From the NCBI RefSeq assembly GCF_000001735.4, contig NC_003070.9, positions 27,513,971-27,577,970 of the forward strand: DNA of 64,000 nt. The letters run 5' to 3'. Shown here piece after piece: positions 977 to 7,300 of the stretch. Made by a program: the position numbers and the translations under genes. The notes under the pieces are model-generated. The model was given only the letters and a program-made list of their open reading frames with translations, searched no databases and was not told the origin of the DNA. Every line of letters starts with the position of its first letter. Position 1 is the stretch's first letter. The DNA comes from Arabidopsis thaliana (lineage: Eukaryota > Streptophyta > Magnoliopsida > Brassicales > Brassicaceae).

Positions 977-2681
977 TACAAAGCCAGGAACATCTTATTG
1001 CATGGGATCGTGTGTGCTTGCCAAAACAGGATGGAGGGTTAGGCATCTGGTGCTCTACACAGATGAATACGGCTCTTCTCTCGAAAATTGGGTGGCGTTT
1101 ACTTCATGATGATGTGAGTCTATGGTCGAAAATCTTGAGAAGCAAGTACCGTGTCGGTGATATTCATAACAGAGCGTGGATGGTGTCTAAAGGTACATGG
1201 TCTTCTACATGGAGGAGCGTTGTCGTGGGTCTGAAGGAGGTGGTTTTCTCGGGTTTGAGCTGGGTTCTAGGGGATGGTGTTGATATCCTCTTCTGGAAAG
1301 ATAGGTGGATGTCGCAGACCCCGTTATGTGAGGTGGTAACATGCGAATTACCGGCGAACTGGGAGGCGGTTAAAGTTGTGGATGTTTGGAGAGATGGAGT
1401 GGGCTGGGATTTACAGAGGCTTACGCCGTATATCACAGAAGGTATGAAGCTCAAGTTACTATCTTTGGTGGTGGATAATGTGACAGGGGCTAGGGATCGT
1501 TTGTCTTGGGGAGGGTGTTCCAATGGTAAATTTACAGTCAAGTCAGCTTATTCTTTTTTAAGCTTGGACTGGAGTTCGAAGCAGCAGATGGCGCGTTTTT
1601 TCTCTAGAATTTGGCGTGTTGTAGCTCATGAAAGAGTTCGAGTGTTCATATGGTTGGCTGCAAATCAGGTGTTGATGACGAATGTTGAGAGACACAGACG
1701 GCACTTATGTGATTCGAGCTTATGTTCAGTATGCAAGAGTGGGGAGGAGACAATTCTACACATTTTACGGGACTGTCCGGCGATGGCGGGAATTTGGACC
1801 CGCTTGTTACCAGCACGGAGACTCTCTTCTTTCTTTTCGAAATCGCTGTTAGAATGGATCTATGCAAATTTAGGAGAGGAGATAGAGATTAATGGTTGTC
1901 CATGGGCGGTCACTTTTTCGCAGGCCATATGGTGGGGGTGGAAATGGCGTTGCGGTAACATCTTTGGCGAGAACAGGAAGTGTCGGGATCGGGTTCGTTT
2001 TATTAAGGATCGTGCGTTGGATGTTTAGAAGGCGCATGTGCACAAAATGGGAGTGACGACGCGGACAGCTAGGGAGGAGAGATTGATTGCGTGGTCTCCG
2101 CCAAGGGTGGGTTGGTTTAAGCTCAATACTGATGGGGCTTCGCGTGGTAACCCGGGACTAGCTACAGTAGGTGGAGTAGTTCGAGACGGGGATGGAAATT
2201 GGTGTTATGGGTTTTCGTTGAATATTGGGATTTGTTCGGCTCCGCTTGCGGAACTATGGGGAGCATATTACGGTTTAAATATCGCTTGGGAGCGCGGTGT
2301 CACACAGTTGGAGATGGAGATTGATTCGGAGATGGTAGTGGGTTTTCTTCGGACAGGGATTGATGATTCGCATCCGCTGTCCTTCCTGGTGCGGTTGTGC
2401 CATGGCTTACTTTCAAAGGACTGGTCAGTCCGGATTTCGCATGTTTATAGAGAAGCTAATCATCTCGCGGATGGGTTAGCTAACTATGCTTTTCTTTTAC
2501 CGTTAGGTTTTCATTTGTTTAATTCTACTCCAGATAGTGTTATGTCGATTGTTCACGACAATGTAGCGGGGTCTGCGTACCCCCGGAACGTTCAAGTGTA
2601 ATTTTTTTTAGTTTTTCAGTTTTAATAAAAATGGGGGTTCGCCCCCCTCTTCTACCAAAAAAAAATACAAAGCCAGGAACA
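977..2681 (+). mobile_element. 5'-truncated LINE retrotransposon with 16-bp target-site duplications
   Basis: The body is about 993-2665 on the plus strand. Its 5' end is cut inside the reverse-transcriptase tail, so the endonuclease and RT core are missing. It ends in a G/C-rich stem (gggggttcgcccccc) and a short poly-A at about 2657-2665. The sequence TACAAAGCCAGGAACA occurs at 977-992 and again at 2666-2681 with no mismatch, which is a target-site duplication made by target-primed insertion. The perfect duplication suggests a fairly young event. The element lies tail-to-tail with the BONSAI/APC13 gene, whose stop codon is only about 70 bp from the duplication. This agrees with the published description of BONSAI as flanked by a LINE in the Columbia accession. 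Confidence 0.93.
1012..2601 (+). pseudogene. LINE ORF2 remnant: RT tail, zf-RVT and RNase H, split by an in-frame TAG
   Basis: The reading frame holds the C-terminal end of a plant non-LTR reverse transcriptase (PKQDGGLGIW motif at the start). A zf-RVT zinc-binding segment follows, with its CSVCKSGEETILHILRDCP Cys/His pattern near 1717-1776. The RNase H domain at about 2104-2500 keeps the D (NTDGASRGNPG), E (ELWGAYYGL), D (IDSEM) and D (ANHLADGLAN) positions. A TAG at 2026-2028 interrupts the frame between the zinc segment and RNase H; the frame is otherwise unchanged on both sides. With the 5' truncation, the copy cannot make a working ORF2 product. It is treated as a dead retrotransposon fragment. 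Confidence 0.9.
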
Positions 2682-2750
2682 GTTTTGGTTTTGATCATAC
2701 ACAACGAGAAACAAGACTTGTAAGAATTTTCCATTGTACTTAAGAGGCTA

Positions 2751-3382
2751 TTACTGTGTATCAAGAGCTAGATCACGCCAAGTTTCAGCATCTGCTTGCT
2801 GAGTTTCCTGATCTGAAACAATCACAATGTGAGGGATTATATTAGTCAAGCTGCTTATATGAAGATTCATAGGTATCTTGGAAGTGAAAGTTGTTAAATC
2901 TCAGAAACCCTCTGAAACAAAGCTCAAATTTGAGCTTTACTATGTTTGAAACATACACAAAAAGTGACGTATGTGTCTCCATTACTTTCCTTATGACATT
3001 TCAAGGTCTCAATATGGGTGTTTAACATCTTGGATCAGAAATGCATCACCAGTGTGGATTCACAGCTAGCAGTTTTAAGAAAAGACTATATTCCAAAGAA
3101 TTTAGACCTTAAGAATCATAAAGCTATGTAAACTGTAAAGCAAAGCAAAGAAAAAAACAAAGAGCCATACTGGTTTCTTCAGTATCATCAGTTTTAACAG
3201 CAAGCACTGGAGGCAATGGAAGATCTGCAACAATAATCTCTTATGAAATAGAAAATAGGAGAAACACAATGATCTTGAGGTATAATGTAGGAGGAAAAAG
3301 GGTTACCATCATCAGGCAAAGTGTCCCTCATCCACTCTTCGTCCACAATGTCTATAAGCATACCAAGACTTACTTCCGCCAT
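2751..3382 (-). CDS. BNS: APC13 subunit of the anaphase-promoting complex (BONSAI)
   Basis: This tiny three-exon gene encodes 63 residues: coding exons 3307-3382, 3171-3224 and 2751-2812, total 192 bases with the stop. All junctions are GT-AG and stay in frame. The product starts [20 protein letters not shown], continues with the conserved LPDD..LPLPPV segment, and ends in an acidic tail with [12 protein letters not shown]. That pattern is APC13/SWM1, a small stabilising subunit of the anaphase-promoting ubiquitin ligase, which drives cell-cycle progression. The locus corresponds to BONSAI (At1g73177 from memory), known for progressive DNA hypermethylation in ddm1 mutants, which is linked to the adjacent LINE. 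A long 5' leader reaches back toward about 3880, where the divergent eIF2A gene begins, so the two probably share a bidirectional promoter. Confidence 0.92.
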
Positions 3383-4364: not shown

Positions 4365-7300
4365 ATGAGTTCTTCACCGTCGTTGGAGATTTTAGGTACA
4401 TATCTCTGAAACTCAATTTCATTCTTCGAGTTATGTTTAAATGTCTCTCTCTTATCTAAAGTCGCTTTTCTGTGTAGTTAGAGAAGCTGAAGGCTTCACT
4501 GTGTGGAATGGTCCTCCATTTACTAATGGCCAGCCCACTCTCAAGCTTGAACGAGTTTCATGCTCTAACACGAAGTTCAGTGTTGATGGATCGAAGTTAA
4601 TGGCGATGAAATCTGATGGAGTTATTAGTATCTATGATGCCACCAGCTTGACAGAAGTGCGGTCATTCACTATAGCAAATGTTACAGCTGCTGAGCTATC
4701 TCCATGTGGGACTTATCTTCAGACTTTTCAAAAACCCACTACTCCCCAAGAGAAGAATGTCTCCATTTGGAATACTGAGACAGGGGATCTAGCACACAGT
4801 CATTACCAAAAATCCATTACTAAAGCCTCATGGTAAGCAGGTCTCAGTGCTTTATTGGCATCATATATGATGCATCAATTATAGATAGTCCTTGTGCTTA
4901 TTATGCTGCTTTTATAATAACGAGTGTTTCTGTGGTTGCTCTATAGGCCATCAATTCGCTTCTGTCCTGATGAATCTTCTGCGTGCCGGTTAGCTACAAA
5001 TGAGGTCCAATTCTTTGACCCGAAAGATTTCTCGAAAGGAATAACATCCCGGATCAGAGTTCCTGGGATTGCTGCATTTGAGCTTTCTAAAACGCCAGCT
5101 TCCCATGTTGCTGTGTTTGTTCCAGAATCAAAGGTACTTTTCACTGCTTGGGCTATCGCATTATACTTTTGAATAGCAAAAAAAGACATCTTTTCTTCTA
5201 TATGTTAAATCTGTTGCAGTCTTCTCTCTCACAAAGTAGTCTATTTTCATTCCTGAAGTTGCAGAACATCATGTGTATAAATGTTTCCTCTATAGACAAG
5301 CAACTCTAACATGTTAATTCATTCATATATAGGGGAGTCCAGGCAGTGTCCAGATTTTTGGATGTGGGGAAGAATTGCAGAGCCAGCCAAGTGCTCGACG
5401 TAGCTTTTTCCGATGTTCCTCTGTGCAGTTTAGTTGGAACCATGGTTCCACTGGACTCCTAGTGGTTGTACAATCAGATGTTGACAAGACCAACCAAAGT
5501 TACTATGGGGAAACGAAGCTACACTACCTTACAATAGACGGCACACATGAGGGCCTTGTTCCATTACGTAAGTCCTAAGCTTTATGTATCTGCTGTTGTG
5601 ATTGTTGGTTGTACTGACTCTTTGGTGCTTTAACAGGTAAAGAAGGACCAGTTCATGATGTTCAGTGGTCCTTTTCGGGTTCAGAGTTTGCTGTTGTATA
5701 TGGCTGTATCCTTTTTCCATCAGCTATAACGACTTATCTCTACGAGTTCATTTAGGAATAATGTTTTTTCATTGACATGTTAATATCATTGTGTTCTTGT
5801 TAAGATGTTATTTCGATTTGGATCTATATACTCCTTCTGGCATTGCTTTCCCTCAACTCCGACTTCAGTTATGCCTGCTTGTGTGACAATCTTTGACAAG
5901 AATTGTAAACCATTGATGGAACTTGGCGAAGGTCCTTATAACACTCTTCGATGGAACCCAAAAGGGAGAGGTATGATGCTTTTCTTCATCCCTGTTTTCT
6001 GTTGTCCTCTCGTTTTTGTTTCTTCTTAAACAGAGGATTTCTGTACATACCTGTTTTTGTAACTTTCAATCGATGTTCCACAGTTTTATGTGTGGCTGGA
6101 TTCGGTAACTTGCCTGGTGATATGGTAAATAACGATCCCTTGTGTTGTTCATATTTTTCAGTTCTCGGGTGACAATAAGTCAGCAATTGACATTCTAAAC
6201 GATTCTTTCTAAATGGTTATATTTCAGGCCTTCTGGGATGTTGTAAATAAGAAGCAGCTAGGAAGTAATAAAGCCGAGTGGTCTGTGACAAGTGAATGGT
6301 CTCCAGACGGGCGTTATTTCTTGACTGCCTCAACAGCACCAAGACGTCAAATTGACAATGGGTATGTTAATACTTCTTCCCTCATAATTGAGTGATACAA
6401 TGAGTACTATGCATCGTGCATCAATTGTTTGTTTTCATACCCGCCTATTTTAATCCATCACTTTTGACTTATGAACCAACCAGTCAGAGATGGTATTATT
6501 CTTTTTTTCTCCTTGGTTTAAAGTTGTGTTCTATATCTTTCGTCTTTGTCCTGACTGAAGGATGAAAATCTTCAACTACGACGGAAAGCGTTATTATAAG
6601 AAGATGTTTGAGAGGCTGTATCAGGTATGTGTCTCTTAAACAGCTTTGAAAAGCATACATTGATTATTATAATTGTCTTACTGGAGTGCTATGATTTTTA
6701 CCTGCAGGCTGAATGGAAACCAGAGTCTCCAGAGAGGTTCGGTGACATCAGTGAACTTATCAAGTCAGTTGAATCATTGAAACTCGGCGAGGGCAAATCG
6801 CAAGGTCGGAAATTCTTGGTTCAAATGCTTGAAACTGTCTCTAATTATGAGATATTTTTGTTAACTTATCATGTTCTTAACCAATTTCTACTTATCTATC
6901 TTAGGACAAGGATCAGCTCAGAAGAAAACTATTGCCCCCAATCCTATTGCACAGAAACCGGCCGCATATCGACCTCCGCATGCTAAGCATGCAGCTGCTG
7001 TTCAAGCCGAGGTAACTCAACAACTTTTCAATAATCACCCGTGATATCAAATTACTAATTATTAACCATACAGTCATGATTCTGTCTCATACTTGAAACA
7101 AAAAACGAAAATAACTCAAGTTTCTCTCAATGAGCCCTTAAATATGCGTGTCCATAACCATATGGCCTTAAATATACACTGCTACTACCGTTTTCGATTG
7201 AACATTTGGCATCACATATCATTATGTCTCTGATAGTTTTTATTATTTGAAATTGCAGTTACTTGGAATAAGCACAACAGGGTAAGTCTCTATCTTGTAA

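Follow-up and report, generated by a model that had tools for sequence, protein, structure and literature searches.

Several plant genes are known whose epigenetic state is set by a transposon or other repeat; their epialleles include FWA, tad3, and BONSAI (BNS). FWA, under the control of a SINE in the promoter region, gains function when methylation is lost, according to a review (PMC3431836), whereas at BNS function is lost and methylation spreads into the gene from its 3' side. Like BNS, tad3 is reported to rely on CMT3 and KYP (PMC5257005). The methylation genetics of BNS is cited here as later papers recount it from the two primary BONSAI studies.

According to these accounts, the BNS epiallele arises in ddm1 lines through a progressive hypermethylation that depends on a neighboring LINE (PMC3431836, PMC4406451). 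The LINE is present in 70 of 96 accessions, and Cvi, an accession without it, has no BNS methylation even in ddm1 (PMC3431836). The methylation is reported to be independent of RDR2, DCL3, AGO4, Pol IV, and Pol V (PMC3431836) and likewise of DRM2 (PMC4406451), and to need KYP and CMT3 (PMC3431836, PMC4406451). It is described as beginning at the LINE, and spread in the 3'-to-5' direction is known from other loci too (PMC4406451). BNS is also reported to be hypermethylated when IBM1 is compromised (PMC5257005), and a local gain of CHG methylation is reported for the exon closest to the LINE, exon 3, in eighth-generation cdca7 double mutants (PMC12711577). Elsewhere BONSAI is cited as an H3K9me2-seeded, RdDM-independent case (PMC8630088). 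A 2020 review describes the LINE as reactivated and its small RNAs as repressing BONSAI (PMC7385966); this account conflicts with the RdDM independence given in PMC3431836 and PMC4406451.

The window analyzed here, 64 kb at bases 27,513,971–27,577,970 of contig C1, evidently belongs to Arabidopsis thaliana and contains this published epiallele site (BNS, AT1G73177) on chromosome 1: the APC13 gene and the tail-to-tail LINE are the same, and no difference was seen (Table 1). From left to right, the locus consists of a minus-strand gene, the LINE fragment on the plus strand, BONSAI on the minus strand, and a piece of a plus-strand gene. The left-hand neighbor, with a frame opening near 813, is divergent from the LINE; profile searches with its pieces hit an AAA-type P-loop ATPase and, past the window edge, Spore_III_AA. 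The plus-strand piece beyond the 5' end of BONSAI (4489–4830) matches eIF2A at 22 bits (cut-off 20.5), as well as WD-repeat models below the cut-off. The arrangement holds up and has been published before, the locus being a well-studied one of the reference genome. The two close relatives of the LINE, its private decay, the exact junctions, and the CG and CHG content of the gene are additions of the present analysis.

Table 1. Features of the LINE fragment and of BONSAI (window coordinates).
Feature	Position	Strand	Evidence or remark
Left target-site duplication, TACAAAGCCAGGAACA	977..992	+	Identical to 2666–2681
5'-truncated L1-type LINE fragment with poly-A tail	993..2664	+	98% to C5:14578742-14580412 over whole length; Pfam domains
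zf-RVT domain of broken ORF2	1531..1797	+	PF13966, E 3.1e-14
Premature TAG	2026..2028	+	G-to-A at 2027, private; G in both close relatives
RNase H-like domain (RVT_3)	2125..2490	+	PF13456, E 5.8e-24
AATAAA, LINE sense strand	2624..2629	+	Sole plus-strand copy in 2591–2760
3'-terminal hairpin GGGGG-TTCG-CCCCC ahead of tail	2633..2646	+	p 0.14 alone against shuffles; covariance model match 2623–2662
Poly-A tail	2657..2665	+	Final A ambiguous with duplication
Right target-site duplication, TACAAAGCCAGGAACA	2666..2681	+	Identical to 977–992
BONSAI 3' non-coding, duplication to stop	2682..2750	-	69 bp
BONSAI exon 3, TAA stop at 2751–2753	2751..2812	-	Gene model
BONSAI exon 2	3171..3224	-	Gene model
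BONSAI exon 1, ATG at 3380–3382	3307..3382	-	Gene model

The original prediction had described a young, 5'-truncated LINE with a dead ORF and perfect 16-bp target duplications, ending about 70 bp from the stop codon of a convergent gene with 192 coding bases, and had recognized that gene as BONSAI with its LINE-dependent, progressive hypermethylation in ddm1. As an observation, this is correct in nearly every detail. The duplicated word TACAAAGCCAGGAACA occurs at two places only in the 64 kb (both strands searched), and the two copies agree in all 16 bases. Under the local composition, any one pair of places has a chance of about 4e-10 of matching exactly over 16 bases, and the expected count of such matching pairs within the surrounding 3 kb is about 0.002. 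The base before each copy is an A (976 and 2665), and this 17th base is indistinguishable from the poly-A tail, so that the duplication may span 17.

The fragment between the duplications is 1,672 bp long. The lost portion is the first 72% of the element (4,241/5,912 bases, with a full-length relative as the reference), and owing to this truncation the fragment has no ORF1, endonuclease, or reverse transcriptase (RT). It does have zf-RVT and RNase H domains, which in plant L1-clade LINEs lie 3' of the RT, as well as a poly-A tail and a target-site duplication; in all these features it resembles A. thaliana L1-clade LINEs of the ATLN/ATLINE1 type, the assignment being to the type and not to a named family. 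Because ORF1, the endonuclease, and the RT are absent here and present in a relative with 98% identity, the element is a truncated fragment of a plant L1-clade LINE, not a complete LINE. Apart from the single in-frame TAG, its ORF stays in one frame up to 2601. In the PDB, the RNase H region finds cellular RNases H, with 4e19_A as the top match (E 4.2e-10); a search of the window against Rfam gave no match.

BONSAI consists of three exons (2751–3382, minus strand) that sum to 192 bases, stop included, and encode 63 residues. Its stop codon lies 69 bp from the right duplication and 85 bp from the LINE tail. With E values of up to 10 allowed, the PDB offered human APC13 (4ui9_M, E 7.3e-4) and no other distinct sequence, and the Pfam model Apc13p scores 21.4 bits (E 2.9e-4) against a curated cut-off of 22. 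A genome search with the BONSAI protein returned three matches, which are its own three exons; hence there is a single APC13 locus. At1g73177 is listed as APC13 in a published account, where only CDC27 is given as duplicated in Arabidopsis (PMC3095333). From stop to ATG (632 bp), the gene contains 4 CG and 22 CHG sites. When overlapping segments of 632 bp were taken across the 64 kb, those over BONSAI itself included, at most 4 CG were found in 35/1,268 segments and at most 22 CHG in 1,000/1,268. Judging from this composition, the CG-poor and CHG-ordinary body of BONSAI would lend itself to methylation by CMT3 more readily than to CG maintenance.

At least two genomic copies besides the LINE itself share 98% identity with it (C5:14578742-14580412 and C1:5958638-5959569); these counts are lower bounds, with 40 of 64 candidates scored and 44 matches listed in the search. 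The remaining matches among those listed have at most 75% identity over the aligned part. The C1 copy (L010, C1:5958638-5959680) lies on the minus strand of the same chromosome as BONSAI. It is 5'-truncated, has an internal deletion of about 520 bp, and was recovered in two pieces, the second being an adjoining 112-bp piece at 99% identity; a flanking duplication, TATCACTT, was identified by eye and is too short to be picked up by a repeat search.

The C5 copy (L009) is full-length, about 5.9 kb (5,912 bases), with target duplications of its own, AACTCTACCTTTTC. By profile search it encodes a DUF4283 ORF1, an Exo_endo_phos endonuclease, RVT_1, zf-RVT, and RNase H. With its first 2 kb as query, a genome search gave no further copy above 73%. 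In place of the expected FADD, its RT motif is FADY (L009 5773–5784; C5:14578272), and a single extra A, absent from the BONSAI copy, breaks its ORF2 frame. Because of these two defects it is improbable that the C5 copy, the sole full-length relative at 98% among the matches listed, still acts as a functional source.

The original prediction called the LINE young. Perfect duplications are weak evidence of this: at 7e-9 changes per site per year, the substitution rate used here, half of identical pairs persist unchanged for about 3 My, so that dating by target duplications is uninformative. The comparison with the two relatives does bear the claim out. Over 1,039 sites aligned three ways (a BLAST-anchored alignment, with indels left out of the date), private changes number 6 in the BONSAI copy, 9 in the C5 copy, and 14 in the C1 copy, and all three copies differ at 1 site. 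A further 11 differences over 631 sites comparable with the C5 copy only are unassignable and were excluded from the date. The six private changes of the BONSAI copy include five of the G-to-A or C-to-T kind, the pattern that methylated DNA would be expected to show, and one of these, at 2027, created the premature TAG. At the above rate, six changes correspond to 0.8 My (0.3–1.8), a figure of the upper-bound kind, since changes in the source prior to insertion are counted and methylated cytosines mutate faster. With only six private changes, the premature stop among them, the LINE is thus estimated to be young, about 0.8 My at such an upper-bound reading. This agrees with the reported polymorphism among accessions (70/96; PMC3431836). 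A first three-way MAFFT alignment had given 8, 17, and 72 private changes for the BONSAI, C5, and C1 copies, respectively; these counts were discarded because the C1 deletion junction and the C-run of the C5 copy were misaligned.

The 3' end of the BONSAI LINE reads AATAAAAA-T-GGGGG-TTCG-CCCCC-CTCTTCTACC-An. A 3' hairpin with compensating changes has been described for one monocot L1 lineage, and relaxed recognition was proposed for other L1 lineages of plants (PMC3747384). In the literature as covered by titles and the beginnings of abstracts, mostly outside subscription papers, we found no report of such a hairpin for Arabidopsis. We gathered L1-type 3' ends at 43 places in the genome (L012–L054 among them) and used 42, dropping L032 with six A only; the tail start was picked by eye where several A-runs were possible. 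The best hairpin lies 6–12 nt before the poly-A in 38/42 ends. The best uninterrupted hairpin within the last 40 nt has p ≤0.05 against dinucleotide shuffles in 25/42 ends, and there are 31 distinct arm pairs. The other 17 ends do not beat shuffles, the BONSAI copy included (p 0.14 for its hairpin alone), and folding of the BONSAI LINE 3' end gives nothing unusual compared with shuffles (z -0.75).

Arms were then exchanged among 36 distinct ends (four with the hairpin outside 6–12 nt were left out and two duplicates merged). The mean score was 17.9 for own arms and 14.4 for swapped ones, and 0/20,000 permutations reached the observed mean, in a test that is favored by picking rows with a hairpin and is uncorrected for relatedness among the ends; the own right arm was unbeaten in 13/36 ends only. 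In a set of 15 ends chosen by hand, all of similar geometry, pairing holds in 86.4% of cells. None of 500 shuffles reached this percentage, the count of cells with changes in both partners, or the score for covariation, whereas the two other measures of the five are unexceptional (60 and 224 of 500 shuffles). A covariance model built on these 15 ends, with the BONSAI copy and two close relatives excluded, finds the BONSAI 3' end (2623–2662) in the 64 kb with 37 bits (E 4.5e-5). At E up to 1, it matches 25 of the 26 loci outside the model (the BONSAI copy and the two relatives included) at the expected end, 22 of them at E <0.01; L037 was missed, and two extra matches lie elsewhere. Finding the window site is by itself no proof of structure, because a sequence-only model finds it too (19.8 bits, E 5.1e-5).

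RNAalifold on a MAFFT alignment of 40 L1 3' ends gave no pairs, the stems appearing to be out of register. The exact pattern AATAAAA...CTACCAAAAAA occurs at 22 places, against 2 for a reversed control; by eye, 9/22 of these contain such a hairpin and most of the others are A+T-rich without one. Scans for bacterial-type promoters and terminators, which are uninformative on plant promoters, served only to confirm the hairpin position. Taken together, the stem-loop 6–12 nt ahead of the poly-A in many A. thaliana L1 elements, with arms covarying between lineages in the sets tested, suggests that the RT recognizes a 3' RNA structure, a reading to which we give about even chances.

For the locus as a whole, we consider it very probable that a recent LINE insertion seeds a KYP–CMT3-dependent spread of chromatin marks into BONSAI, with RdDM not the driver. 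An L1-type LINE, 5'-truncated, would have been inserted by target-primed reverse transcription into the 3' non-coding flank of BONSAI, probably within roughly the last million years, and would still be segregating in A. thaliana. Once silenced, the fragment would constitute a small region methylated at H3K9 and at non-CG sites. Whenever heterochromatin or H3K9 demethylation is disturbed, in ddm1 or otherwise, the KYP–CMT3 feedback loop would extend this region over generations from the LINE to the 3' end of BONSAI and on to its 5' end, with stochastic silencing as the outcome. Chromatin spreading is preferred here over small-RNA direction because of the published mutant genetics. A trans signal seems to be needed besides the LINE in cis, since hypermethylation is reported to arise also in DDM1 wild-type epiRILs with hypomethylated chromosomes (PMC4406451). 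Against an account based on chromatin only, the small RNAs from BNS that accumulate in ddm1 (PMC3431836) are left as a by-product, and in one review a reactivated LINE and small RNAs are held responsible for the silencing (PMC7385966).

Transcription of BONSAI itself into the LINE is a further candidate: Pol II leaving the gene would run into the LINE heterochromatin, and this coupling would favor movement of the marks back along BONSAI. We regard this as possible but rather doubtful, and as contributory rather than exclusive; its premise is that the insertion hit the region of BONSAI 3'-end formation. The distance from the stop to the tail is 85 bp only, and no AATAAA is present on the minus strand within 2401–2760, so that the 3' end of the BONSAI mRNA may fall within the LINE. 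This point is weakened by the frequent absence of AATAAA from plant poly(A) sites. According to a figure legend, the LINE lies within the 3' noncoding part of BONSAI (PMC7365398), and the 3'-to-5' spread reported at other loci (PMC4406451) also speaks for such a contribution, while AT1G73177 was not found in the main text of a paper on gene–TE chimeras (PMC10241880).

The mechanistic gloss of the original prediction is the part that holds poorly. It proposed that short spacing and convergence favor antisense transcripts running from the LINE through BONSAI, leading to double-stranded RNA and methylation directed by small RNAs. A LINE promoter is expected at the 5' end of the element and would here be gone, since the first 4,241 of 5,912 bases are missing; a promoter must then come from elsewhere, e.g., from the divergent gene with the frame opening near 813. 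The AATAAA at 2624 on the LINE strand, ahead of BONSAI, would tend to stop LINE transcripts before they reach the gene. The convergent arrangement with its 69-bp gap, the small RNAs from BNS in ddm1 (PMC3431836), and the statement of the same mechanism in one review (PMC7385966) favor the antisense route, but RDR2, DCL3, AGO4, Pol IV, Pol V, and DRM2 are all reported to be dispensable (PMC3431836, PMC4406451), which makes it very unlikely. Some other form of antisense transcription may occur. The interpretation originally given is, as a whole, partly supported. Least probable is a LINE that is a mere bystander, with BONSAI among many genes hypermethylated by genome-wide feedback after heterochromatin loss: increased non-CG methylation is indeed reported for many other loci, both in ddm1 and in epiRILs that are hypomethylated (PMC4406451), but LINE-less Cvi stays unmethylated in ddm1 (PMC3431836) and the spread starts at the LINE (PMC4406451).

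BONSAI is a reference case of how a temporary lapse in silencing can become a heritable epimutation of a gene when a transposon lies next to it. The very probable seeding of KYP–CMT3 spread by the LINE corrects the mechanism, which would be one of chromatin spreading rather than small-RNA direction, despite the wording of one review, and the date of the insertion was obtained without leaning on its target duplications. A target gene that is poor in CG and ordinary in CHG would fit the enzymes reported as needed for its methylation.
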